Source of the DNA: Porphyrobacter sp.
GTDB taxonomy: Bacteria > Pseudomonadota > Alphaproteobacteria > Sphingomonadales > Sphingomonadaceae
Direction of reading: 5' to 3'
DNA length: 64,000 nt
Assembly: GCA_027533455.1 (NCBI GenBank)
Contig: JAPZUC010000004.1
Location: forward strand, 62,001 to 126,000
Part shown: positions 38,457-64,000 of the stretch, piece by piece
Layout: every line of letters begins with the position of its first letter
Numbering within the stretch: position 1 is the stretch's first letter
Notes under the pieces: generated by a model
What the model was told of the DNA's origin: nothing
The model's database searches: none
The model's input: the letters and a program-made list of their open reading frames with translations, nothing else
Made by a program: the position numbers and the translations under genes

Positions 38457-38509
38457 ATCTTGGTATTCCCCACACTGCTTGCCGTCAGCTTGACCTGACG
38501 CTATCGCTG

Positions 38510-38690
38510 CTCCCGCGCCAAGGTAACGGGAATGCGGTTTGATGCCGCAGCTGTCCCTGCAACTGTAAGCGGTGAGTATGCGGTGCGCGCCCCTTTTTCG
38601 CGAAGGGGCAGCCACTGGAGCGGCGACGTTCCGGGAAGGCGAGCACCCCATGCGTTGATCCGTGAGCCAGGAGACCGACCGGGGCGTGTC
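38510..38690 (+). ncRNA. cobalamin (B12) riboswitch
   Basis: Conserved elements appear in order: GGTAACGGGAATGCGGT, GATGCCGCAGCTGTCCCTGC, AACTGTAAGCGG, AGCCACTG (38610), GGGAAGGCGAG, and the B12 box AGCCAGGAGACC (38665-38676). Adenosyl- or aqua-cobalamin binding normally reduces expression of the gene behind it, here a BtuB-like receptor starting at 38815. The inverted repeat TGTCGCTC (38687)/GAGCGACA (38743) may belong to the expression platform. Exact ends are approximate. Confidence 0.93.
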
Positions 38691-38814
38691 GCTCTTTGCT
38701 TGGCTCAGGGATTGGCCAGGCGCGGAAAAGCACTTCTGTTGTGAGCGACATCACCGGGCTGTGAGGGATGGGATCCCCTCGCGGCCTTCGTGTTGCTGAT
38801 GACGGGAGGAATCC

Positions 38815-40764
38815 GTGAAGAATTTGAAATTGTTGTGCAGCGTCGCCGGGGCGGCGCTGGCTTGGGCTGTGCCTGCCTATGCGCATGATGCTGGCATTCA
38901 GGATGAGGGCTCCGTAGGCCCCGAGGTCCGCACGGCTGCCGCGCGTGACGATATCATCGTCACCGCCAGCCGCTCAGGGCGGCTCGACCTGCCCGCGCGC
39001 TACCCTGGCTCATTGACCCTCATCACTGCCGACGACCTCGACAACCGGCAGACCCACGACATCGCCGATGTGCTGCGCGATGTCCCCGGCGTGGCGGTGG
39101 CAGGCATTGCAGGGCAGACCCAGATCCGCCTGCGCGGCAGCGAGGCCAATCATGTCCTGGTGCTGGTCGACGGGATCGAAGTCTCCGATCCTTTCGCGGG
39201 CGAGTTTGACGTTGGCACCCTGCAATCCGAACCCGGCGCGCGGGTTGAGGTGCTGCGCGGGCCGCAGTCGGCCCTCTACGGCTCTGATGCGATCGGCGGC
39301 GTGGTCGCTTATCAGAGCGCCAGCGGACGCAGCCAGCCGGGCTTTGCCGCAAGGCTGGAAGGGGGCACGCAAGGCACTGCCAACGGCGCGCTGCGTTATG
39401 GGGTGCATGGCGATATCTGGGACGCGGCACTTTCCGCCGTGGTGGTCAGCACCGATGGCCAGCCCAATGCGCGCGGTGGCACCCGCGATATCGGGCGCGA
39501 CAGCTACACGCTGGCAGGCAAGGGCAATCTTAAGGTGACGGAGACCCTCACCCTGCGCGCCGTCGCCCGTTTCATCCGCACCGAGGGGCAAACCAACGAC
39601 AGCGACTTCGACCCCGCCAGCCCCACCTTCGGCTTCACCATCGATAGCCCCGGCGTGACCTTCACCAACGAGGCGATCTACGCCCTCGTCGGGGCGCGGC
39701 TGGACACGCTCGGCGGACGTTGGACGCATGACCTGTCCGCCCAGATCGCCGAAGTGGACCGCGAAACGGATAGCCCCTTCGGCCTGACCTCGGCCAGCGA
39801 AGGCGACCGCGTGAAGGCTTCCTATGTCACTGCCTTCAACCCGGCTGACGAACATAACCTGACCTTCGCGGCGGATTACGAGCGTGAGAGCTTCCGCAAC
39901 GCACTGGCGGCGAGTGGCGGGTTCACCGGGCGGCGCGCAATCGAGCAGATCGGCCTTGTCGGCGAATATCGCTATGCAGGTCAGGACGTCGACCTTTCCG
40001 CAGCGCTGCGCCACGACATCAACGACCTGTTCCGCAATGCGACCACCTTCCGCGTCGGCGCAGGCTACCGCATCACCGAGACCACCCGCCTGCGCGCCGC
40101 GGCGGGGAGCGGCGTCAAGAACCCCGGCTTCTTCGAGCTTTACGGCTTCGTCGATGGCCGCTTCATCGGCAATGCCGCGCTGCGGCCCGAAAAGTCGACG
40201 GGTTGGGAAGTGGGCCTCGACCAGCAGCTTGGCGATCGTGCCACCGTTGCAGTGACCTATTTCGACAGCGAGCTGGAAGGCGAGATCTTCACCACCTTCC
40301 TGCCGCCGACCTTCATTGCCACGCCTTCCAACCGCACGACCTCGAGCCAGCAGCGCGGGGTGGAGGTATCGCTCAGCGCGCGGCTGGCCGACCAGTGGAG
40401 CCTCGATGCGGCTTACAGCTACCTCGATGCCGAGGAGAACAGGGTGCGCGAAGTGCGCCGCCCGCGCCATATCGCCAGCGCCGCACTGACGTGGAGCGCG
40501 CCCAGCGATGCCGCCTCGGCCACGCTGGTGGTGCGGCACAATGGCGCGACACCGGATGTGGCCTTCACCGATCCGAGCTTCGTTCCGGTGCGGGTCACGC
40601 TGGATGACTACACCCTCGTCAATCTCAACGCCCGGGTGAAGCTGACCGACAGCCTCAGCGCCTTCGCGCGGGTCGATAACCTGCTCGATGAGACTTACGA
40701 GCAGGTGTTCAGCTTCGTCTCTCCCGGCCGATCTGCGGTCGTGGGGGTTGAAGCGAGGTTCTGA
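38815..40764 (+). CDS. btuB: TonB-dependent vitamin B12 receptor BtuB
   Basis: 649 residues. Outer-membrane beta-barrel importing cobalamin with TonB/ExbBD energy. Signal peptide (cleavage near AYAHD), TonB box DDIIVTASR (about 43-51), plug domain with ADVLRDVPGVAV, IRLRGSEANHVLVLVDGIEV and RVEVLRGPQSALYGSDAIGGVV, then a barrel ending in VVGVEARF with the terminal Phe needed for insertion. It starts with GTG at 38815 behind GGGAGGAAT. The riboswitch upstream confirms B12 as the likely substrate. Confidence 0.93.
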   Translation: MKNLKLLCSVAGAALAWAVPAYAHDAGIQDEGSVGPEVRTAAARDDIIVTASRSGRLDLPARYPGSLTLITADDLDNRQTHDIADVLRDVPGVAVAGIAGQTQIRLRGSEANHVLVLVDGIEVSDPFAGEFDVGTLQSEPGARVEVLRGPQSALYGSDAIGGVVAYQSASGRSQPGFAARLEGGTQGTANGALRYGVHGDIWDAALSAVVVSTDGQPNARGGTRDIGRDSYTLAGKGNLKVTETLTLRAVARFIRTEGQTNDSDFDPASPTFGFTIDSPGVTFTNEAIYALVGARLDTLGGRWTHDLSAQIAEVDRETDSPFGLTSASEGDRVKASYVTAFNPADEHNLTFAADYERESFRNALAASGGFTGRRAIEQIGLVGEYRYAGQDVDLSAALRHDINDLFRNATTFRVGAGYRITETTRLRAAAGSGVKNPGFFELYGFVDGRFIGNAALRPEKSTGWEVGLDQQLGDRATVAVTYFDSELEGEIFTTFLPPTFIATPSNRTTSSQQRGVEVSLSARLADQWSLDAAYSYLDAEENRVREVRRPRHIASAALTWSAPSDAASATLVVRHNGATPDVAFTDPSFVPVRVTLDDYTLVNLNARVKLTDSLSAFARVDNLLDETYEQVFSFVSPGRSAVVGVEARF

Positions 40765-52914: not shown

Positions 52915-55155
52915 TCAGATGGGCATGCTCAGTTCCAGCTGATGGAATTTGGGAATGGTCTTGTTGGACTCGCGCCATTTGGCGAGCGGGAAGGCCCCGG
53001 CGCCCAGCGCAGCGAGCGGAATGCCCGCTTCAGCCAGCGAATAGGGCGACACGCGGTGCCGGGTCATGAACCCGCCGCTGCCGTCGGAGGTCAGCGCGGT
53101 TTCGAAATTGAGACCCTGACTGTTCTCGGTCGCATTGACGACCTTGCTGACGACCAGTTGCCCATGGCCGAGATCGAGCACCACGTCGGTCCCGACCGGC
53201 ACTCCCGCAAGGCCGGTGATGCGCGCCCCCGTCTTGGACAGGTTGCGCAGGATGACGTCGTAGTAGTGATCTTCGTGGATCAGTCCAACCTTGCGGAAGC
53301 TGGAGATGCGTTCCGCGCGGTGGCGCGGCGGGCCGCTGGGGCGGAACATCGCGTTGCCATTGGCAAACTGTTCGAGCACTTCTTCCTGCGTGATCGGCCG
53401 CGAGAAGATGTAGCCCTGCACCAGATCGGCGCCGCGTTCCTTGACTAGCTTGAGCTCGTCCATCGCCTCGACCCCCTCGGCGACGGTTTCCATCCCCAGC
53501 GCCTTGGCCAGCGCGACTATCGCTGTGATGATCGCCGGGTTTATGTCGCCGTTCTCGGTGCAACCGCGCACGAAGCTCTGGTCTATCTTTATCTTGTTGA
53601 AATGGATGTGTTTCAGGTATCCTAACGAGGAATAACCGGTGCCGAAATCATCAAGCGAGAGACGCACCCCGAGCTTCTTGAGATCCCGGAAAATCGCGTC
53701 CACCGTTTCCAGATCGCCTACGAAAACGCTTTCGGTAATCTCGAGCTCGAGCCGACCAGGCGGCAGGCCAGAGGCCTGAAGCGCCGCCGCCACTGCCTTG
53801 CGGTAACCCGCACGGATAAACTGCTTGGCCGATACGTTGACCGCCACGCGGATCGTCTCAGGCCAGGCCAGCGCATCTTTGCAAGCCTGCTTCAAGGCCA
53901 TCTCGCCGATGCGGATGATGAGGTCGTCGTTCTCGGCGACAGGGATGAACTGGGAGGGTGAGATGTCGCCCTCTTCGCTGTCGTGCCAGCGCAGCAATGC
54001 CTCGAAGCATTTGACTTCATTGGTGACCGGATCGACCAGCGGCTGGTAAGCGAGCTTCAATTCGCCCTTGTCAACGGCATCGCGCAACCGGTCGCCCAGT
54101 TCGGCTGTGCGCGATGCGGCATCGCGCAACTCGCTGGTATAGAAGCAGAACGTGCCGCCGTGGGTTTCCTTGGCGGAATACAGCGCCATGTCTGCAGCGC
54201 CGGTCAGTTCGCCCGTCTCCAGCCCGTCATAGGGCGCGATCGCGATCCCCACCGAGGTGCCGATGATCGCACGCCGTCCGTTGATCAGGTAGGGCTGCGA
54301 GACCGACTGGACGATGCGGTTGGCAAGCTCGCCGAGTGTGCCGCGATCATCCATGTCGGGCAGCAGCACCTGGAACTCGTCCCCGCCAAGGCGTCCGACT
54401 TCGCCATGGCTGCCCACAATCGACGTCAGTCGCTCGGCGACCTGCTTGAGCAACTCGTCGCCCGCGGGGTGTCCCATTGTGTCATTGATCTGCTTGAAGC
54501 GGTCGAGATCAAGCATCATCAGCGCGCAGCTGCGCCGGCTGACGCGGAATGCGGCGAGCATGGCCGAGAGGCGCTTGTTCAGCTTGCGGCGGTTGGCCAG
54601 CCCGGTCAGCTCGTCAACCTGCGATTGGCGCGCGACCTGAGTCTCATAGGCATATTGCGCGGAGATATCGACTGCACTGCCGCGATAGCCCTTGAATTCG
54701 CCATCGCCGTCAAGCAGCGGCCGCCCGTTCAGGCGCCACCAGCGGGTGTTGCCGCGGCTGGTGGCGACCGCAACGATCTGCTCCTCGAGCTTGGAGCGCG
54801 CCTTGAGCTTGAAGGCGAGGCTGCGCTGGGTGGCGGCGCCGTGCTCTTCTTCGATGTCCTTAAACACGTCCGTCAGCGGCTTGCCGATCAGCGCATCGTC
54901 ATCATTTCCGATGTCGGCAAGAGCGCGCTGCGAGAGGAAGGCGAGATTGCCTTCTGCATCGGTCGCCCAGAACATGCCGATGCCGAGCTCCTCGACCTCG
55001 CCCAGCACAACGCTGCGGTCGGGTGAAACCCCTCGCGTCGCATCACCCCCCGCGGTTGCGGAGTTTCGCGCTTCTCGAAGTGCCTTGCGAAAGCCTAGCG
55101 GCATACCTCGTCCTTGCCTGGAGCGCTCGGCTGAGACGCTTCCCTGAGCCGCCAT
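52915..55155 (-). CDS. c-di-GMP signalling protein, PAS-GGDEF-EAL-PilZ
   Basis: 746 residues. A PAS-like sensor (about 52-175; FWATDAEGNLAFLS and YRGSAVDIS), a GGDEF domain with intact GRLGGDEFQV (about 260-269), an EAL domain with CFEALLRWH, ELEITESVF, DDFGTGYSSLGYLK, IDQSFV, AEGVE and QGYIFSRP, and a C-terminal PilZ-like domain with NLSKTGARI. The EAL catalytic set looks complete, so phosphodiesterase activity is likely; the GGDEF domain lacks the RxxD inhibitory site. No membrane helix. It is divergent from the propionyl-CoA synthase gene. Confidence 0.92.
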   Translation of the reverse strand: MAAQGSVSAERSRQGRGMPLGFRKALREARNSATAGGDATRGVSPDRSVVLGEVEELGIGMFWATDAEGNLAFLSQRALADIGNDDDALIGKPLTDVFKDIEEEHGAATQRSLAFKLKARSKLEEQIVAVATSRGNTRWWRLNGRPLLDGDGEFKGYRGSAVDISAQYAYETQVARQSQVDELTGLANRRKLNKRLSAMLAAFRVSRRSCALMMLDLDRFKQINDTMGHPAGDELLKQVAERLTSIVGSHGEVGRLGGDEFQVLLPDMDDRGTLGELANRIVQSVSQPYLINGRRAIIGTSVGIAIAPYDGLETGELTGAADMALYSAKETHGGTFCFYTSELRDAASRTAELGDRLRDAVDKGELKLAYQPLVDPVTNEVKCFEALLRWHDSEEGDISPSQFIPVAENDDLIIRIGEMALKQACKDALAWPETIRVAVNVSAKQFIRAGYRKAVAAALQASGLPPGRLELEITESVFVGDLETVDAIFRDLKKLGVRLSLDDFGTGYSSLGYLKHIHFNKIKIDQSFVRGCTENGDINPAIITAIVALAKALGMETVAEGVEAMDELKLVKERGADLVQGYIFSRPITQEEVLEQFANGNAMFRPSGPPRHRAERISSFRKVGLIHEDHYYDVILRNLSKTGARITGLAGVPVGTDVVLDLGHGQLVVSKVVNATENSQGLNFETALTSDGSGGFMTRHRVSPYSLAEAGIPLAALGAGAFPLAKWRESNKTIPKFHQLELSMPI

Positions 55156-55315
55156 AAGCGCAACCTTCTTGCAAAAGCGTTACCCGTCATTTCTCGTCCC
55201 CATTGCGGCGGATGGAGGCGCGGGCGCGGCAAATCGTCCGGAACTGATTGTGAGCAACTGCGTTATGGGAGTGGAGAGTCCTCGTGGCATTTTCTTACCC
55301 ATGAAGGTTGCCCCA

Positions 55316-55388: not shown

Positions 55389-55402
55389 CGGGGGATGGTG
55401 TC

Positions 55403-58400
55403 ATTTCTGTCGATACTCTGCTGGCGAGCAAGCCCGAGGCTCTGACCAATTCTGTGCGTACCCGCGCCGACTGGGACGCCATGCGCGCCGCTGCGCTGGC
55501 CGATCCGGGCGCGTTCCACAGCGCCATCGCTGCCCGCAACATGCACTGGTTCGTGGCCGAGGTCGGCCCTTCTGGCGCCTGGCTCGCCAAGGACGATGAC
55601 GGCAGTTGGCGCGGGTGGGACGCAGACACTGGTGCGGCAGTCGCGCCTGCGTTGCCTTCCGGTTTCACTCCGTGGCGCACAGGCTTTGACGGGAGCAATG
55701 CGCCGCACTGGCGCTGGTTCGTGGGCGGGCGCACCAATGCGGCGTTTTCGGAACTCGACCGCCACGTGCTTTCCGGCCACGGCGCTGAAGCCGCGCTGAT
55801 CTTCGAAGGCGATCGCTGGGACATGTCGGCAAACGGCGGCAAGGGCGCGCCGATCGATTGCTTCACGGTGAGCCGCAAGCAATTGCTGCTTGAGGTGGCG
55901 AAATGCGCCGTCGCGCTTGAAGCGCTGGGCCTTAAGCCGGGCGACCGCATCGCGCTGAACATGCCGAGCATCGTGCCGCAGATCTACTGGACCGAGGCCG
56001 CCAAACGGATGGGCGTGGTCTATACGGCGGTGTTCGGCGGCTTCTCCGACAAAACCCTGTCGGACCGCATCGCTGATACCGGCGCGCGGGTGATCGTGAC
56101 CAGCGATGGCAGCTACCGCAACGCGCAGGTCGCGGCCTTCAAGAACGCCTACACCGACCCCGCGCTCGACAATTTCGTGCCTGTAACCACGGCGCTGGAA
56201 ATCCTCGGCGGGCTCGATCTCGAACTGCCTGAAGGCGGTCACGAAACGATCCTGGACACAGTCCGTGAGTCACTCGATGGCGAGATTACGGTCGACCGTT
56301 CGGACGTGATGCGCGGTGTGGGCCGGTCGCTGATCAATCTCGGGGCGGAAGGCCGCATCACCAGTGCGGATGCCGCGCGGGTCCGGATCGCGATCGCCTC
56401 CAGCCTTGTCACCCTGCCGCCGCGGGTGGAGGCGGTGATCGTGTGCCGCCACACCCACCAGCCCGACGTGATCTGGCGCGAGGAGCGCGACCGCTGGAGC
56501 CACGAACTGACCGATGCGGCTCTCGTAACAGTGCTCGAAAAGGCGCGCGCTGCCGGCTTTGACGTTCACGGCGAGACCGATCTGCTCGCGCTACCCGACA
56601 GCGATTTCGTCCGCGCGATCTGGGCTTCTTCCAAGCCCATGCCGGTCGATGCCGACTATCCGATGTTCTTCATCTACACCTCGGGCAGCACCGGCAAGCC
56701 CAAGGGGATCGTCCATTCCCATGGCTATGCGGCAGGCGTGGCCGAGACGATGGGGGTCAGCTTCGACGCGCGCCCCGGCGATACGCTGTTCGTGGTCGCC
56801 GATCCGGGCTGGATCACCGGCCAGAGCTACCTGATCTGCGCGCCGCTGATGACGCGGGTGACTTCGCTGGTCAGCGAAGGATCGCCGGTATTCCCGCACG
56901 CGGGCCGCTTTGCGTCGATGATCGAGCGGCACAATGTCCGCATCTTCAAGGCCGGGGTGACCTTCCTTAAGGCGATCATGTCCGATCCGGCCAACCTCGC
57001 CGAGCTTGAACGTTATGACATGAGCGGGCTTCGCGTCGCGACCTTCTGTGCCGAGCCGGTCAGCCCTTCGGTGCAGGCCTTCGGGATGGAGCATGTCACC
57101 CCGCGCTACATCAACTCCTACTGGGCGACCGAACACGGCGGGATCGCGTGGACACATATGTTCGGGAATGATGATTTCCCGCTGCGCCCCGATGCCCACG
57201 CCTATCCGCTGCCGTGGATTGTCGGCGATGTATGGGTCGAAGATGCCGATGCGGGCGCTCTCGTAGATGCACCCTTCACCCGCACCGATGCGGACGGGGT
57301 GCCGTGGCGCAAGGCCGCAATGGGCGAGAAGGGCGAGATCGTCATCGCCGCGCCTTACCCTTACCTTGCGCGCACCATCTGGGGCGATATTGCGGGCTTC
57401 AAGGTCGAAGACGGCCGCGTCGATCCGGCCTGGCGCGGCGATGCCAAGCGTTGGGAAGAGGGCTATTGGAAGCGCTGGAAAGGCGCTTGGGCTTATACGC
57501 AGGGCGATTTTGCGATTGCCCACGCCGACGGCTCCTTCTCGCTTCACGGGCGTTCGGACGATGTCATCAATGTCTCGGGCCACCGGATGGGGACCGAGGA
57601 GATCGAGGGCGCGGTGCTGCGCGACAAGGCGCTCGCGCCGGACTCGCCCGTCGGGAACGTGCTGGTGGTTGGCGCGCCGCACCGCGAGAAGGGGCTGACC
57701 CCGCTCGCCTTCGTGGTGCCGGTCGCGGGCCGCAAGCTTACACACGAGGACAAGCGCCGGTTGTTCGATCTCGTCCGTACCGAAAAGGGCGCGGTCGCCG
57801 TGCCGGCGGACTTCATCGAAGTCTCGCAATTCCCCGAAACCCGCTCGGGCAAATATATGCGCCGCATGGTTCGCGCGCTGGTGGTGGGCGAGGATGTCGG
57901 CGACGTCACGACGCTGCGCAACCCCGAGGCGCTGGACGAACTGCGCAAGGTTATTGACGACTGGCAGCGCAAACAGCGTATGAGCGACGAGCAGGCCCTG
58001 TTCGACCGTCACCGCTATTTCCTGGTGCAATACAACACGGTTGCGCCGGGCAAGCAGGTAGCGACCGTCACCGTCACCAACGCGCCGGTCAACGCCCTCA
58101 ATGAGCGCGCGATTGACGAGCTGGTGATGGTCACCTCGACGCTCGCGCGTGATGACAGCGTGGTTGCAGTGGTGTTTACCGGCGAAGGCACCTCGTCCTT
58201 CGTGGCGGGCGCCGACATCCGCCAGATGCTCGAAGAGATCCACACCGTCGAAGAGGCGATGGTGCTGCCCAATAACGCGCACCTTGCCTTCCGTACCATC
58301 GAGAACATGGGCAAGCCCTGCGTCGCGGCGGTGCAGGGCGTGGCGCTGGGCGGAGGCATGGAGTTCGCGCTCGCATGTCACTACCGCGTGGCCGAACCCG

Positions 58401-60910
58401 TGGCGCGTTTCGGCCAGCCCGAAATTCGCCTGCGCCTGCTCCCCGGCTATGGCGGCACCCAGCGTTTACCGCGCCTGCTCGCCGACCGCCGCGGGGCCGA
58501 AGGTGTGCGCGACGCACTCGATCTTATTCTGGGTGGGCGGAGCATCACGGCTGATGCGGCGGCGGAAATCGGTCTCGTCGACGCGCTGGTCGAAGGTGCG
58601 GAAGATGCACTCTCCGCGGCCCATGCAGCGGTGCGCGACTTCGTGAAAAACGGTTCGGGCTCCGCGCTCGGCAAGGCCTTCGCGGAACGTCAGGCCGCCG
58701 TAACGCGCTGGGAAACGGCGGCGGATTTCAGCCTCGATACGGTGCTGGAGGACGATTTCCTCCAGCGTATCCTGCGCCAGCTCGATTGGGCCGGGCGCGG
58801 GCCTGCCGGTGCGCGGGCGCTGGAAGCGGTGCGAGTGGGCCTTGAACAGGGCATCACCGCAGGCACCGCGCGCGAAGCGACGTTGTTCGCCGAAGCGATC
58901 GTTGACCCCGAGGGCGGCAAGACCGGCATCCGGCAATTTATGGACAAGGTTGCGCCCCCGCTACCGGTGCGGCGCGACGGCGTGTGGATTGATGCCGAGC
59001 ACGAGATGCGTGCTCAGGCATTGGAGGCAGCAGGCGATCTGCTTCCTGTGGGAGCGCCCTTCTATCCGGGCGTGACCCCGATCCCGCGTCACCAATACGC
59101 CTTCGGCATCGCCCGCGATCCCGACACGGGCCTGCCCCGCTTCGGCCCGCCGGCGAGCCACGAGAAGGAGCTGATCGTCTCCGTGCCCGAGCCCGCGCCC
59201 AACGAGGCGCTGCTCTACATGCTGACGAGCGAGGTCAACTTCAACGACATCTGGGCGCTGACCGGCATACCCGTTTCGCCCTTCGACGCGCACGAGGAAG
59301 ACGTTCAGATTACCGGCTCGGGCGGCATCGCGCTGGTCGCGGCGCTGGGCAGCGAAACGCGGGCTCAGGGGCGGATCAAGGTTGGCGATCTGGTGACGGT
59401 CTATTCGGGCACCAATGACCTCCTCAGCCCCCTGGTCGGCAATGACCCGATGTATGCCGATTTCAGCATTCAGGGCTACGAGACCGAGACCGGCAGCCAC
59501 GCGCAGTTCCTGACCGTGCAGGCGCCGCAGATGCACAAGGTTCCGCCTGATCTGACGCTGGAGCAGGCGGGGAGCTATGTGCTCAACCTCGGTACCATCG
59601 CGCGCTGCCTGTTCACCACCTTGCAGATCGCACCGGGGCGGACGCTGTTCGTCGAGGGTGCAGCGACAGGGACGGGGCTTGATGCGCTGCGCTCATCGGT
59701 GCGCACGGGCTTGCAGGTGACCGGACTGGTGTCCTCGGAAGAACGCGCGAGCTTCATCATGCGGGTGCAGGGCGCAGTTGGAGCCATCAACCGCAAGGAT
59801 GCGCGCTTTGCCGATCTCTATACCGTGGTGCCCGAGGACAAGGCCGAAGCCATCGCTTGGGAAGCTGCGGGCGCGCCGCTGGTCGAGCAGTACAAGGCAC
59901 TCAACGGCAGCAAGCTCGCCGATTACGTCGTCAGCCACGCGGGCGAGACCGCCTTCCCGCGCTCGTTCCAATTGCTCGCCGAGGGCGGCACGCTCGCCTT
60001 CTACGGGGCTTCGTCAGGCTACCACTTCAGCTTCATGGGTAAGCCGGGAACGGCCATCCCCGAGGAGATGCTCCGCCGTGCGGCTCTGCGCGGCGGGGAG
60101 GCGGTGCTGATCTACTACGGCCCCGGATCGAGCGAATTGCTCGACGAAACGGGCCTAGAGATGATCGAGGCCGCGCGTCGCTTCAACGCACGCTCGGTCA
60201 TCGCCACCACCACCGACGGACAGCGCGAGTTCCTGCAATCGCTGGGGCTGGAGGACGCGATCGAAGGCATCGTCAGCCTCGAAGCGATCCGCAGGCGGGA
60301 AGGGGCCAACTTCCACTGGCCTGACACCATGCCGCGCCTGCCCGACGCGAAGGCCGATATCGAGGTCTTCAAGGCTGCGGTGCGCGACTATCAGGACCGT
60401 GTGATGAAGCCCTTCGGCTCGGCCGTGGGCAAGATTCTGCGCTCCCCCGACAATCCGCGCGGCAACCCCGATCTGGTGTTCGAGCGGGCCGGGCAGGACA
60501 CGCTCGGCATCTCGACCTCGCTCGTGAAGCCCTTCACCGGGCGGGTGATCTTCGCCGAGGATATGACCGGCTGCCGCTTCACCTTCTACGCGCCTCAGGT
60601 CTGGACCCGCCAGCGCAAGATCCTGATGCCGACCGCGAACATCTTCGGCACGCACCTGTGCAATGCCTACGAAGTGGCGCGGATGAACGACATGATCGCA
60701 GCCGGCCTGCTCGAGGTGACGGAGCCCGAAGTGGTGACGTGGGACGGGCTACCGGAAGCGCACCAGGCCATGTGGGACAACCGGCACACGGGATCGACCT
60801 ATGTGGTCAATCACGCACTGCCGGAAATGGGCCTCAGGAGCCGGGATGCGCTGCTTGAAGCATGGGCTGCCGCGCAGGCCTCGGTCACGGTCGGGGAACC
60901 CGACACGTAA
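55403..60910 (+). CDS. pcs: trifunctional propionyl-CoA synthase
   Basis: About 1835 residues. Converts 3-hydroxypropionate, ATP, CoA and NADPH to propionyl-CoA. Three fused domains: an acyl-CoA synthetase (about 20-870; AMP motif YTSGSTGKPKG near 423, HGRSDDVINVSGHRMG, acyl-adenylating Lys in SGKYMRR near 817), an enoyl-CoA hydratase (about 890-1190; FVAGADIRQML, GVALGGGMEFALACHYR, PGYGGTQRLP), and a Ccr-like enoyl-CoA reductase (about 1260-1820; EVNFNDIWALTGIP, EGAATGTGLDA, VNHALPEMGL). Length and order match the Chloroflexus enzyme (about 1820) and the Erythrobacter NAP1 enzyme. No ATG or GTG lies at the expected N-terminus: homology begins near an ATT at 55403; in-frame TTG codons lie at 55358 and 55367. 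Confidence 0.96.
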   Translation: MSVDTLLASKPEALTNSVRTRADWDAMRAAALADPGAFHSAIAARNMHWFVAEVGPSGAWLAKDDDGSWRGWDADTGAAVAPALPSGFTPWRTGFDGSNAPHWRWFVGGRTNAAFSELDRHVLSGHGAEAALIFEGDRWDMSANGGKGAPIDCFTVSRKQLLLEVAKCAVALEALGLKPGDRIALNMPSIVPQIYWTEAAKRMGVVYTAVFGGFSDKTLSDRIADTGARVIVTSDGSYRNAQVAAFKNAYTDPALDNFVPVTTALEILGGLDLELPEGGHETILDTVRESLDGEITVDRSDVMRGVGRSLINLGAEGRITSADAARVRIAIASSLVTLPPRVEAVIVCRHTHQPDVIWREERDRWSHELTDAALVTVLEKARAAGFDVHGETDLLALPDSDFVRAIWASSKPMPVDADYPMFFIYTSGSTGKPKGIVHSHGYAAGVAETMGVSFDARPGDTLFVVADPGWITGQSYLICAPLMTRVTSLVSEGSPVFPHAGRFASMIERHNVRIFKAGVTFLKAIMSDPANLAELERYDMSGLRVATFCAEPVSPSVQAFGMEHVTPRYINSYWATEHGGIAWTHMFGNDDFPLRPDAHAYPLPWIVGDVWVEDADAGALVDAPFTRTDADGVPWRKAAMGEKGEIVIAAPYPYLARTIWGDIAGFKVEDGRVDPAWRGDAKRWEEGYWKRWKGAWAYTQGDFAIAHADGSFSLHGRSDDVINVSGHRMGTEEIEGAVLRDKALAPDSPVGNVLVVGAPHREKGLTPLAFVVPVAGRKLTHEDKRRLFDLVRTEKGAVAVPADFIEVSQFPETRSGKYMRRMVRALVVGEDVGDVTTLRNPEALDELRKVIDDWQRKQRMSDEQALFDRHRYFLVQYNTVAPGKQVATVTVTNAPVNALNERAIDELVMVTSTLARDDSVVAVVFTGEGTSSFVAGADIRQMLEEIHTVEEAMVLPNNAHLAFRTIENMGKPCVAAVQGVALGGGMEFALACHYRVAEPVARFGQPEIRLRLLPGYGGTQRLPRLLADRRGAEGVRDALDLILGGRSITADAAAEIGLVDALVEGAEDALSAAHAAVRDFVKNGSGSALGKAFAERQAAVTRWETAADFSLDTVLEDDFLQRILRQLDWAGRGPAGARALEAVRVGLEQGITAGTAREATLFAEAIVDPEGGKTGIRQFMDKVAPPLPVRRDGVWIDAEHEMRAQALEAAGDLLPVGAPFYPGVTPIPRHQYAFGIARDPDTGLPRFGPPASHEKELIVSVPEPAPNEALLYMLTSEVNFNDIWALTGIPVSPFDAHEEDVQITGSGGIALVAALGSETRAQGRIKVGDLVTVYSGTNDLLSPLVGNDPMYADFSIQGYETETGSHAQFLTVQAPQMHKVPPDLTLEQAGSYVLNLGTIARCLFTTLQIAPGRTLFVEGAATGTGLDALRSSVRTGLQVTGLVSSEERASFIMRVQGAVGAINRKDARFADLYTVVPEDKAEAIAWEAAGAPLVEQYKALNGSKLADYVVSHAGETAFPRSFQLLAEGGTLAFYGASSGYHFSFMGKPGTAIPEEMLRRAALRGGEAVLIYYGPGSSELLDETGLEMIEAARRFNARSVIATTTDGQREFLQSLGLEDAIEGIVSLEAIRRREGANFHWPDTMPRLPDAKADIEVFKAAVRDYQDRVMKPFGSAVGKILRSPDNPRGNPDLVFERAGQDTLGISTSLVKPFTGRVIFAEDMTGCRFTFYAPQVWTRQRKILMPTANIFGTHLCNAYEVARMNDMIAAGLLEVTEPEVVTWDGLPEAHQAMWDNRHTGSTYVVNHALPEMGLRSRDALLEAWAAAQASVTVGEPDT

Positions 60911-60974
60911 TCCGTGCGTTGCGATTTTTGAAACGTTCTTAGCTCTCCTCCCCAGGGTTTGAACGAAACACAAA

Positions 60975-60991
60975 GCGAAGCGCAGCTTCGC
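60975..60991 (+). promoter_or_regulatory. hairpin in the pcs-mcr intergenic leader
   Basis: GCGAAGC-GCA-GCTTCGC, a perfect 7-bp stem with a 3-base loop, 25 bases before the mcr start and without a T-tract. It could stabilise or process the message between the two genes. Confidence 0.35.
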
Positions 60992-61015
60992 AGTAATTCT
61001 GTGAGGAGAGGGCTT

Positions 61016-64000
61016 ATGGCCAAACTGAAAACTGTTGCCGCTGCGCCTGCCTTGCAAGGCGATGTTCCGGGCCGCCTGGCGGGCAAGATCGCCGTCGTTA
61101 CCGGCGCGGCAGGCAATCTGGGCGGGCATATCGTTACCCACTACCTTGCAGAAGGTGCAACCGTGGTGATGACGGGGCGTACCCCCGATCGCACCAAGGC
61201 CGCTGCCGAAGCGCTGCTGAAGGCCACCGGGGCCGATCCGGCGCGGCTTGCCACAGTAGCGCTCGACGGCGGAGACATCGCATCCGTGCGCGCCGCGATT
61301 GCCGAGGTGGTGAAGCAGTTCGGGCGGATCGATATTCTGGTGAACAACGCCGGAAGCGCCGGGCCCAAGCAACCGATCGAGAACCTGCCATTGACGGCAG
61401 AGGAGCTCGCCGCCCTCCAGAAGAAGGGTAGCACCGACAGCGAGACCGTGGGCGATGCGCTGCGCAACATTTTCGGCGTTGCATGGAATGTTGCGCGCGT
61501 CGCGGCCGAGCACATCCCCGAAGGCGGCTCGATCATCAACGTTTCGACGATCTTCAGCCGCACGCCCTATTACGCGCGTGCCGCCTATGTCGTCCCCAAG
61601 GCGGCGATGAATGCGTGGAGCCGCGAACTCAGCCTGGAACTTGGCCCCAAGGGGATTCGCGTCAACCTCGTCTACCCCGGCCCGATCGAAAGCGAACGCA
61701 TCCGCAACGTCTTCGCCGCGATGGACACCGCGCGTGGCGATGCGGCGGGGACTACCGCGACGCAGTTCTTCGACATGATGAGCCTCGAACGCGCGACCGG
61801 CGGGAACGACAAGGCCAAGACTTTCCCGACGCCGAACGATATCGCCACGACCTGCGTGTTTCTCGGCTCGGACGAAAGCGCTGCCTATAATGGCCACGAT
61901 TTCGAGGTCACCCACGGCATGTCCGTGCGCAAGGAACAGCGTTCGACCTATCTGGCGCGTCCCACCATGCGCTCGATGGACGGCACCGGCCTTGCCGTGC
62001 TGATCGCAGCTGGCGACGATTGGGAGGAGGCGCTTGAAATCGCGCAGGTGCAGCTTGCCTGCGGGGCCGAAGTCGTGCTCGGCCTGCCGCGCGCTGCCGA
62101 TGTTGCCATTTCCGAGAAGCGCTGCGCGGCGCTCGGCCTGTCGGACAAGCTCAGCATCATCCGTTTCAGCCGCAAGGACCCGGCAGCGATGGAAGCCGCG
62201 CTGGAGGATTACACCGCCAAGGGCACACCCGTCAGCGGAGCGCTGTTCCTTCCCGCCTTGGGCGCGGGCGAACTCAGCGGCGCGATTACTACTGCTGATG
62301 ATGGCGTGGTCGAGGCGCTGATGGATGCCGAACTCGCTGGCAATATGGCGCTCGCGCGGACAATGAGCCGCTACTGGAAGCGCCACGACAACCTTCTCCA
62401 GCCGCCGCGCTTCGTCTTCGTCAGCCATGCGAGCGACGGGAAGGGCGATATCTACGGCCACATCCTGCGCGCCGCGACCGAGCAGCTGATCCGCATCTGG
62501 CGCGACGAGAGCGAGATCGACACCGCCCATGGCCGCCGTCGTCAGGCCGAATGGGGCAACCAGATCGTCCGCTTCACCAATACCGAGGCCGAGAACATCC
62601 GCTTCACCGCGGGCCACGCCGCGCGAATCCTGCTCAAGGAAAGCAAGCTCGGCGAGATCACCCTCTACGTCCCGTCGAACATCGGCGAGGCGACGGGTGC
62701 GCGCAAGGCGATGCCCGGCTTCTCAGAGAACATCACCGGGCTGCATCTGGGCAAAGTCGCGCTGATTACCGGCGGTTCCGCCGGGATCGGCGGGCAGGTC
62801 GCCCGTCTGTTGGCACTCGCCGGCGGCAAGGTGATGATGGTTGCCCGCCGCGAAAGCGAGCTGGCGGTCGCGCGCGCGCGGATCGTCTCCGAGCTGGAGG
62901 ATATCGGTTTCGCGGGTGTCGAGCGGAGGGTGCAGACCCTCGCCAATGTCGATGTCAGCAATTTCGAGAGCCTGAAGGGCGCGGTCGACGCGACTCTGAA
63001 GGCCTTCGGGCGGATCGACTACCTGATCAACAACGCGGGCGTTGCGGGCGCGGAGGACATGGTCGTCGACATGGGTGTCGACGCGTGGAACTACACGCTC
63101 GATGCGAACCTCGTGTCGAACTACTTCCTCATGCACCACGTCGCGCCGCTAATGAAGGCGCAAGGATCGGGCTACATCCTCAACGTCTCGTCCTATTTCG
63201 GCGGCGAGAAGTACCTTGCGGTCGCATACCCGAACCGTGCCGATTACGCCGTGTCCAAGGCCGGCCAGCGTGCGATGGTCGAAAGCATGGCGCGCTATCT
63301 CGGACCGGAAGTGCAGTTCAACGCGATTGCTCCTGGCCCGGTCGATGGCGACCGCCTCTCGGGCACTGGGGGCAAGCCCGGGCTGTTCGAACGGCGCGGC
63401 AAGCTGATCCTCGAGAACAAGCGCCTCAATGCCGTCCATGCCGCCGCGATCAAGGCGATCCGGCGCGGGGTGCGGGTCGAGGCGGTGCTGGCGCGGCTCG
63501 CCCGCAATGACACCGTCAAAATGAGCCACGACACCAACAACCCGCGCGAGTTGCGCGAACTGGCCTTGGCGTGCGCGCGCGAGGGCGATGGAACCTGCAC
63601 CTGGGACCAGTATCTACTCACGCCCACCATCGCTGCCGCGCTGATCGGACGGCTGCGGCAGGCGGGCCTGTTCCTCGATGCGCCGGAATGGAACGACCGC
63701 CCGGCCACGCCCGAGGCGGATTGCGACTGGCTGCTGCGTGTTCCGCCAGAGGACGCGCCTTTCCTCCCCGCCGACAAGATTGCGGTGGAGGCCAACAAGG
63801 TCGGCACCGGCGTGCTCTCGAAGCTCTATCTCGGCAAGATGCCGACTGAGCATGACGTGGCGCAGGCGACCGTGTTCTTCCTCGCCGACCGCGCTGTTTC
63901 GGGCGAGACCTTCATGCCTTCGGGTGGTCTCTCGGTCGAGCGCTCGACCACCGAGCGCGAGCTGTTCGGTTCGCCGAAGCAGGAACGTTTGGACCAGATG
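61016..64000 (+). CDS. mcr: bifunctional malonyl-CoA reductase (partial, C-terminus outside window)
   Basis: 995 residues visible of an expected roughly 1220. Two SDR-type halves. The N-terminal half (about 20-560; VTGAAGNLGG cofactor loop, LVNNAGSAG, Tyr-x3-Lys in YVVPK) reduces malonate semialdehyde to 3-hydroxypropionate in the Chloroflexus enzyme. The second half starts near residue 578 (ALITGGSAGIGGQVA, LINNAGVAG, DYAVSKAGQRAM) and reduces malonyl-CoA to the semialdehyde. AGGAGAGG precedes the ATG at 61016. It lies 105 bases behind pcs on the same strand, so both probably form one unit. Confidence 0.95.
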   Translation, partial: MAKLKTVAAAPALQGDVPGRLAGKIAVVTGAAGNLGGHIVTHYLAEGATVVMTGRTPDRTKAAAEALLKATGADPARLATVALDGGDIASVRAAIAEVVKQFGRIDILVNNAGSAGPKQPIENLPLTAEELAALQKKGSTDSETVGDALRNIFGVAWNVARVAAEHIPEGGSIINVSTIFSRTPYYARAAYVVPKAAMNAWSRELSLELGPKGIRVNLVYPGPIESERIRNVFAAMDTARGDAAGTTATQFFDMMSLERATGGNDKAKTFPTPNDIATTCVFLGSDESAAYNGHDFEVTHGMSVRKEQRSTYLARPTMRSMDGTGLAVLIAAGDDWEEALEIAQVQLACGAEVVLGLPRAADVAISEKRCAALGLSDKLSIIRFSRKDPAAMEAALEDYTAKGTPVSGALFLPALGAGELSGAITTADDGVVEALMDAELAGNMALARTMSRYWKRHDNLLQPPRFVFVSHASDGKGDIYGHILRAATEQLIRIWRDESEIDTAHGRRRQAEWGNQIVRFTNTEAENIRFTAGHAARILLKESKLGEITLYVPSNIGEATGARKAMPGFSENITGLHLGKVALITGGSAGIGGQVARLLALAGGKVMMVARRESELAVARARIVSELEDIGFAGVERRVQTLANVDVSNFESLKGAVDATLKAFGRIDYLINNAGVAGAEDMVVDMGVDAWNYTLDANLVSNYFLMHHVAPLMKAQGSGYILNVSSYFGGEKYLAVAYPNRADYAVSKAGQRAMVESMARYLGPEVQFNAIAPGPVDGDRLSGTGGKPGLFERRGKLILENKRLNAVHAAAIKAIRRGVRVEAVLARLARNDTVKMSHDTNNPRELRELALACAREGDGTCTWDQYLLTPTIAAALIGRLRQAGLFLDAPEWNDRPATPEADCDWLLRVPPEDAPFLPADKIAVEANKVGTGVLSKLYLGKMPTEHDVAQATVFFLADRAVSGETFMPSGGLSVERSTTERELFGSPKQERLDQM

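Follow-up and report, generated by a model that had tools for sequence, protein, structure and literature searches.

The 64,000-nucleotide stretch of Porphyrobacter sp. DNA analyzed here (the window) is part of contig C7 in a 2.88-Mb genome (G000) of 17 contigs. Its 3' end carries genes for a propionyl-CoA synthase (pcs) and a malonyl-CoA reductase (mcr), which are followed on the same contig by a gene for a carboxyltransferase subunit, accA (Table 1).

Table 1. Features of the pcs-mcr-accA locus, with positions in the window unless another coordinate is named
Feature	Position	Strand	Remark
Divergent neighbor with PAS, GGDEF and EAL domains	52915..55155	-	Not part of the unit; marks the site that the unit keeps in the clade
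EcfG-like box, GGAAC-N16-CGTT	55240..55264	+	Points at pcs; prediction only
Ribosome-binding site, GGGGGA	55390..55395	+	Seven bases 5' of the pcs ATT start
pcs, propionyl-CoA synthase	55403..60910	+	1835 residues; ATT start; stop 60908-60910
Second box, GGAAC-N17-CGTT	60895..60920	+	Spans the pcs stop, upstream of mcr
mcr, bifunctional malonyl-CoA reductase	61016..64000	+	Truncated by the window border; complete gene extends to L005:6714
accA, third gene of the unit	L005:6724-7650 (contig G000:C7:126724-127650)	+	Outside the window; nine bases after the mcr stop

Pfam matches to AMP-binding, ECH_1 and two zinc-dehydrogenase stretches were found in the pcs product, and residues 20-1827 (1808 of 1835) aligned with the structure of the Erythrobacter PCS (6eqo) at 2873 bits. 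Judged from this overall alignment, pcs encodes a full-length propionyl-CoA synthase; the three-domain ACS-ECH-ECR fusion of about 1835 residues described in a first-pass annotation of the DNA was borne out by both comparisons.

The start codon of pcs is probably AUU. Among 28 5' ends from the clade and near-clade, ATT was the first codon behind a GGGGG(A)-like motif in 17 (the present pcs and 16 of the 27 named relatives), whereas 10 had ATG there and 1 was uncalled; L100, which was missed by the motif filter, was counted as ATG by sequence inspection. In 26 of 27 genes, a conserved motif follows the start at a distance of exactly 15 residues. The isoleucine start codon of the 17 genes was always ATT, never ATC or ATA, and ATT accounts for 154 of the 1256 isoleucine codons overall in 16 of them. 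Five of 16 ATT-start genes have no ATG, GTG or TTG from the upstream stop to the ATT, and the distribution of ATT and ATG starts requires four changes on the PCS tree. A start at a downstream valine codon was rejected because 8 of the 17 ATT genes have a codon other than GTG at that place and such a start would thus not be common to the relatives. AUU starts are described for infC and pcnB of Escherichia coli (PMC9410913) and cvfC1 of Staphylococcus aureus (PMC13009471), a very short list to which pcs, the gene of a large metabolic enzyme, would be an addition.

The mcr frame continues for 714 bases beyond the window end on the same contig, and the protein has 1232 residues when read from the ATG at 61016. 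The frame opens with a TTG at 60959 and the ATG stands behind GAGGAGAG; the ATG is favored as the start by the structure of the Porphyrobacter dokdonensis enzyme, whose first residue corresponds to it. Scores against the C-terminal half (1431 bits) and N-terminal half (1172 bits) of that enzyme were far above chance. The protein aligned full-length with the four-SDR enzyme, and the Roseiflexus MCR was aligned with it as well. Since MCR consists of four SDR domains, two of them catalytic (PMC10470521), the initial description of a double-SDR protein covered only half of the enzyme. Fourteen residues (T165, Y172, R175, Y178, K182, S731, Y743, R746, Y749, K753, R785, L795, R799 and R1164 in Roseiflexus numbering) have been named as catalytic or substrate binding, shown or modeled, in the Roseiflexus enzyme (PMC10470521), and all 14 were kept when the alignment was inspected by eye. 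Thus, neither the loss of mcr catalytic residues nor the frameshift beyond position 64000 that had initially been considered was found, the frame being intact to the mcr stop. The full-length matches of PCS and MCR and the kept MCR residues support the earlier proposal that the organism may convert malonyl-CoA to propionyl-CoA.

The gene 3' of mcr encodes an AccA that scored 370.8 bits against TIGR00513 (curated cut-off, 319.3), and a transposase-like fragment, named by eye, lies 3' of it at the contig end. The genome has a second accA on contig C4, 65% identical to the linked copy, and one accD-like match. Conservation of the arrangement was followed in 78 named loci, which were collected by likeness to the present MCR, so that distant modules lie outside the sample. 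The pcs gene precedes mcr in all 72 loci with sequence upstream of mcr. Among the 73 that hold the mcr 3' end, accA adjoins mcr in 50, lies 2 kb off in 1 and is lacking in 22. Those without an adjoining accA include Sphingopyxis, Azospirillaceae, Maricaulaceae and Burkholderiales types and two metagenome-assembled genomes (L135 and L139) near groups that have the linked gene. In the 249-genome family sample, only 6 of 23 mcr-positive genomes have a linked accA; no other accA was found in G022 (67% complete, linkage read from coordinates), G030, G113 and G219, and one more accA is present in each of G000 and G173.

Comparison of 29 loci indicated that the flanks of the trio are common within the Erythrobacter/Porphyrobacter clade and mostly different outside it, while the trio itself is kept. 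The divergent GGDEF-EAL neighbor is retained in 20 of the 29. Four same-genus genomes sampled before the whole genus was searched had no mcr; the whole-genus search found mcr in 50 of 114 genomes. Recent transfer into the present strain alone was rejected on the basis of this distribution and the retained neighbor. The 50 modules fall into two types. Type A, to which the present module belongs, occurs in 42 genomes with 87-98% MCR identity (the genome's own, 100%), and type B occurs in 8 genomes with about 60-67% identity. At least two accA matches were found in 39 of the 42 type A genomes and in none of the 72 others, of which 8 are type B and 64 are mcr negative. The type A genomes have two accA matches in 38 cases, three in G285, one in G281 and G319, and none in G309; G281, G319 and G309 are 71-89% complete. 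The two types are far apart on the MCR tree, which suggests that the module was acquired twice. Five changes are required on this tree to account for linked accA. The tree was built by a quick method without bootstrap; fragment rows and four duplicate genomes were removed first, thinning of near copies then left 69 of 89 rows, and L203, whose accA is interrupted, was scored as lacking it. In that locus (G285:C1), the genome with the interrupted linked accA also has a housekeeping accA. A decaying type B pcs-mcr was observed in G326:C4 (L201), where the pcs match breaks off around residue 1504 and mcr is incomplete.

Linked and housekeeping AccA belong to separate lineages. In a tree of 61 chosen rows, which included 28 linked genes (22 of the 50 named linked-accA loci are represented) and chosen standalone genes, the linked proteins were separated from all others by a branch supported at 99/94, which was recovered in 98% of 200 bootstrap trees. 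Comparison with Erythrobacter oryzae gave a pN of 0.05 and a pS of 0.35 for linked accA, values that indicate purifying constraint. The gap between mcr and accA was -4 to 49 bases in most loci for which it was computed, apart from three odd values and the 2-kb case. The separate lineage, the overlap or near abutment with mcr, the persistence of accA with pcs-mcr where the flanks differ, the purifying constraint and the absence of a second accA from all mcr-negative genomes of the genus each argue against the possibility that linked accA is a spare housekeeping gene that was caught beside mcr and has no functional connection to it. That explanation is unlikely, even though the sole accA of G030, G113 and G219 can serve fatty acid synthesis from its position beside mcr, and the sole accA of G072, 2 kb from mcr, is of the housekeeping lineage. 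The sole accA of G030, G113 and G219 belongs to the same lineage as the other linked genes, which suggests that linked AccA may be active with AccD. A carboxyltransferase subunit dedicated to the module would show that malonyl-CoA is drawn for central metabolism apart from lipid synthesis.

The pcs-mcr module goes with phototrophy, both in the Sphingomonadaceae and in further mcr-positive genomes. A search for reaction-center genes (PF00124) gave matches in 44 of the 249 genomes of the family sample and in 85 of the 114 from the genus, with five genomes in both sets. Over the 358 distinct genomes, PF00124 was present in 69 of 72 with mcr versus 57 of 286 without it, these 57 being phototrophs that manage without the module. 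The three mcr-positive genomes in which PF00124 was not found are 67%, 88% and 90% complete. In the family sample, 9 of the 10 genera with mcr were among the 24 of 96 genera with PF00124 (P = 9e-6, with kinship allowed for by the genus count only). Named loci outside the genus led to 37 further mcr-positive genomes, for which no overlap with the earlier ones was seen, and 33 of these had PF00124; the further loci reach other Alphaproteobacteria and Burkholderiales. Reaction-center genes were also found in the present genome when the search for pufLM that had been proposed with the first annotation was carried out. A physical link between the unit and the photosynthesis cluster was rejected as a general feature: in the present genome the unit is on C7 and the reaction-center genes are on C10. 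One exception is G303, in which about 6 kb separate the trio (G303:C17, L208:9913-17591) from a second reaction-center gene pair on the opposite strand. CO2 uptake by aerobic anoxygenic phototrophs is generally held to proceed in the absence of a complete fixation cycle (compare PMC10674011), and a small conserved unit tied to reaction-center genes is a concrete target for the study of light-dependent CO2 uptake.

The region upstream of pcs contains a sequence that matches the promoter consensus of EcfG, the alphaproteobacterial general-stress sigma factor, for which GGAAC and CGTT separated by 15-17 bases have been described (PMC5869019); it is a predicted EcfG box. When the upstream regions of 25 clade members were aligned, GGAAC and CGTT stood out as conserved islands, and the exact GGAAC-N16-CGTT, 145-176 bases 5' of the start, is present in 24 of them, L096 having CATT. 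None of 13 loci whose PCS is 78-85% identical has an exact box, and of 45 loci at greater distance only 2 do, G169 (L046) and the type B locus of G271 (L204); a box with one mismatch occurs in two other type B loci. Overall, the box occurred in 26 of 83 forward strands and 1 of 83 reverse strands, compared with 0.24 expected from shuffles that keep base composition only and not dinucleotides. The second box has its exact form in 17 of 24 loci of the clade, the present one among them; six have CATT, and one has no box. It makes a weaker case because its first half lies in coding sequence. Other conserved islands between 55163 and 55380 (GATTGA.AAA.CGTTAC, TGGCAT.TT.TTGC and GTGTAATTTTG.TGCA) have matched no motif so far. 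A PpsR-type site, TGT-N12-ACA, was dropped since it occurred in 1 of 25 sequences and not in the present one, and a sigma-54 reading of TGGCA...TTGC, considered by eye, was dropped because the stretch is one base short of the consensus.

The unit may be under EcfG control, and its expression may depend on light. The general stress response of Erythrobacter litoralis is said to be activated in the dark, partly under a LOV kinase (PMC12148442), whereas the 3-hydroxypropionate genes of Porphyrobacter sp. ULC335 rise by day (PMC10674011). These two observations are not easily reconciled, so any light control could be of either sign.

The present genome contains genes that could carry propionyl-CoA further. 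Methylmalonyl-CoA mutase, one of the enzymes that were to be sought in the complete genome, was found with 1182 bits (cut-off, 876). It is clustered with two carboxylase-subunit genes and a gene for a glyoxalase-family protein, likely the propionyl-CoA carboxylase and epimerase, which are named by their linkage to the mutase. The corresponding search for carboxylase and epimerase yielded these candidates beside the mutase; the carboxylase subunits scored below the curated cut-offs, and the epimerase candidate is a generic glyoxalase-family match. The mutase part of the route is general in the family, as the gene is present in 230 of 249 genomes and in 22 of the 23 with mcr. G219 (L040, L137), which is 99% complete and has pcs, mcr and linked accA as its sole accA, had no mutase match. 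A cobalamin riboswitch followed by a gene for a TonB-dependent receptor, likely for B12 uptake, is located at 38504-40764 in the window and fits a need for B12.

No match to isocitrate lyase and, at E<=1e-60, none to crotonyl-CoA carboxylase/reductase was found in the present genome, which may therefore use MCR-PCS to make C4 acids from acetyl-CoA. As a general reason for the module, substitution for the glyoxylate bypass is unsupported: isocitrate lyase was present in 7 of 23 mcr-positive versus 33 of 226 mcr-negative family genomes (P = 0.07) and is, if anything, more common with mcr. Crotonyl-CoA carboxylase/reductase was found in 0 of 46 genomes, with and without mcr alike, and its lack is not specific to the module.

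Gene content and gene order, the existence of a second AccA lineage, the downstream mutase and the tie to reaction centers are read from sequence; the activity of the enzymes, the pairing of AccA with AccD, the flux, the expression of the unit and its control by light and EcfG we infer. On this basis it is probable that the pcs-mcr-accA operon supplies itself with malonyl-CoA and converts acetyl-CoA and two bicarbonates to succinyl-CoA with light energy, serving anaplerosis and electron disposal rather than autotrophy. AccA, with the single AccD of the genome and the biotin parts, would carboxylate acetyl-CoA with bicarbonate to malonyl-CoA, which MCR would reduce with two NADPH to 3-hydroxypropionate. 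PCS would activate, dehydrate and reduce the latter to propionyl-CoA at the expense of ATP and NADPH, and propionyl-CoA carboxylase, epimerase and B12-dependent mutase would complete the conversion to succinyl-CoA. The net result would be the formation of a C4 unit from one acetyl-CoA and two bicarbonates, with NADPH and ATP spent, and in a light-powered cell such a route would refill the citric acid cycle and dispose of electrons.

It is also conceivable, but quite improbable, that the unit chiefly detoxifies or uses outside 3-hydroxypropionate or acrylate, for example from the breakdown of DMSP, with MCR as a side activity. PCS takes 3-hydroxypropionate directly, and the ligase domain of the NAP1 enzyme has been used for the 3-hydroxypropionate step in vitro (PMC11599936). 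However, MCR, along with AccA in 50 of the 73 named loci, is kept beside pcs, which is sensible only upstream of 3-hydroxypropionate, and use of an outside substrate would leave the tie to reaction centers unexplained. Operation of the whole 3-hydroxypropionate bi-cycle, with autotrophic growth possible, is extremely improbable: both diagnostic enzymes, the mutase and carboxylase-like genes are present, but the related Porphyrobacter ULC335 encodes no full fixation pathway according to its authors (PMC10674011). The first annotation was right to leave autotrophy unclaimed. More tentatively, and with somewhat less than even expectation, the supply of succinyl-CoA by pcs-mcr-accA can be placed in a wider scheme, in which a phototrophy-bound cassette with its own malonyl-CoA supply is read by EcfG and its PCS is throttled by the AUU start, so that light, stress and carbon would meet in one CO2-fixing operon of a nonautotroph.

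For Erythrobacter and Porphyrobacter, the PCS-MCR pair itself is not new. Searches of the open-licence literature found neither the three-gene unit with linked accA nor its tie to reaction-center genes, both of which look new, and did not find the EcfG box or the AUU start, each of which was sought apart from pcs.

In the 3-hydroxypropionate bi-cycle of Chloroflexus aurantiacus, PCS and MCR are assigned the same steps as here. There, pcs, mcr and accA are apart (Caur_0613, Caur_2614 and Caur_1647) and accA adjoins accD (PMC3150298), whereas the three genes are adjacent in the present genome. Porphyrobacter sp. ULC335 has key enzymes of the bi-cycle, with CO2 co-assimilation as their likely use and daytime induction (PMC10674011); the accessible part of that report does not mention a linked accA, an EcfG box or an AUU start, which are features of the present locus. 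The PCS of Erythrobacter sp. NAP1 (PDB 6eqo) has the same domain order and aligns full-length, but the present PCS has clearly diverged from it, and comparison with NAP1 needs care because the genus has two distant module types. The MCR of Porphyrobacter (Erythrobacter) dokdonensis (PDB 6k8s and 6k8v) gave a near-identical alignment with no difference of kind. The locus of E. dokdonensis DSW-74 (L099) is 94% identical and has pcs and accA adjoining as well, its pcs starting with ATG where the present gene starts with ATT.
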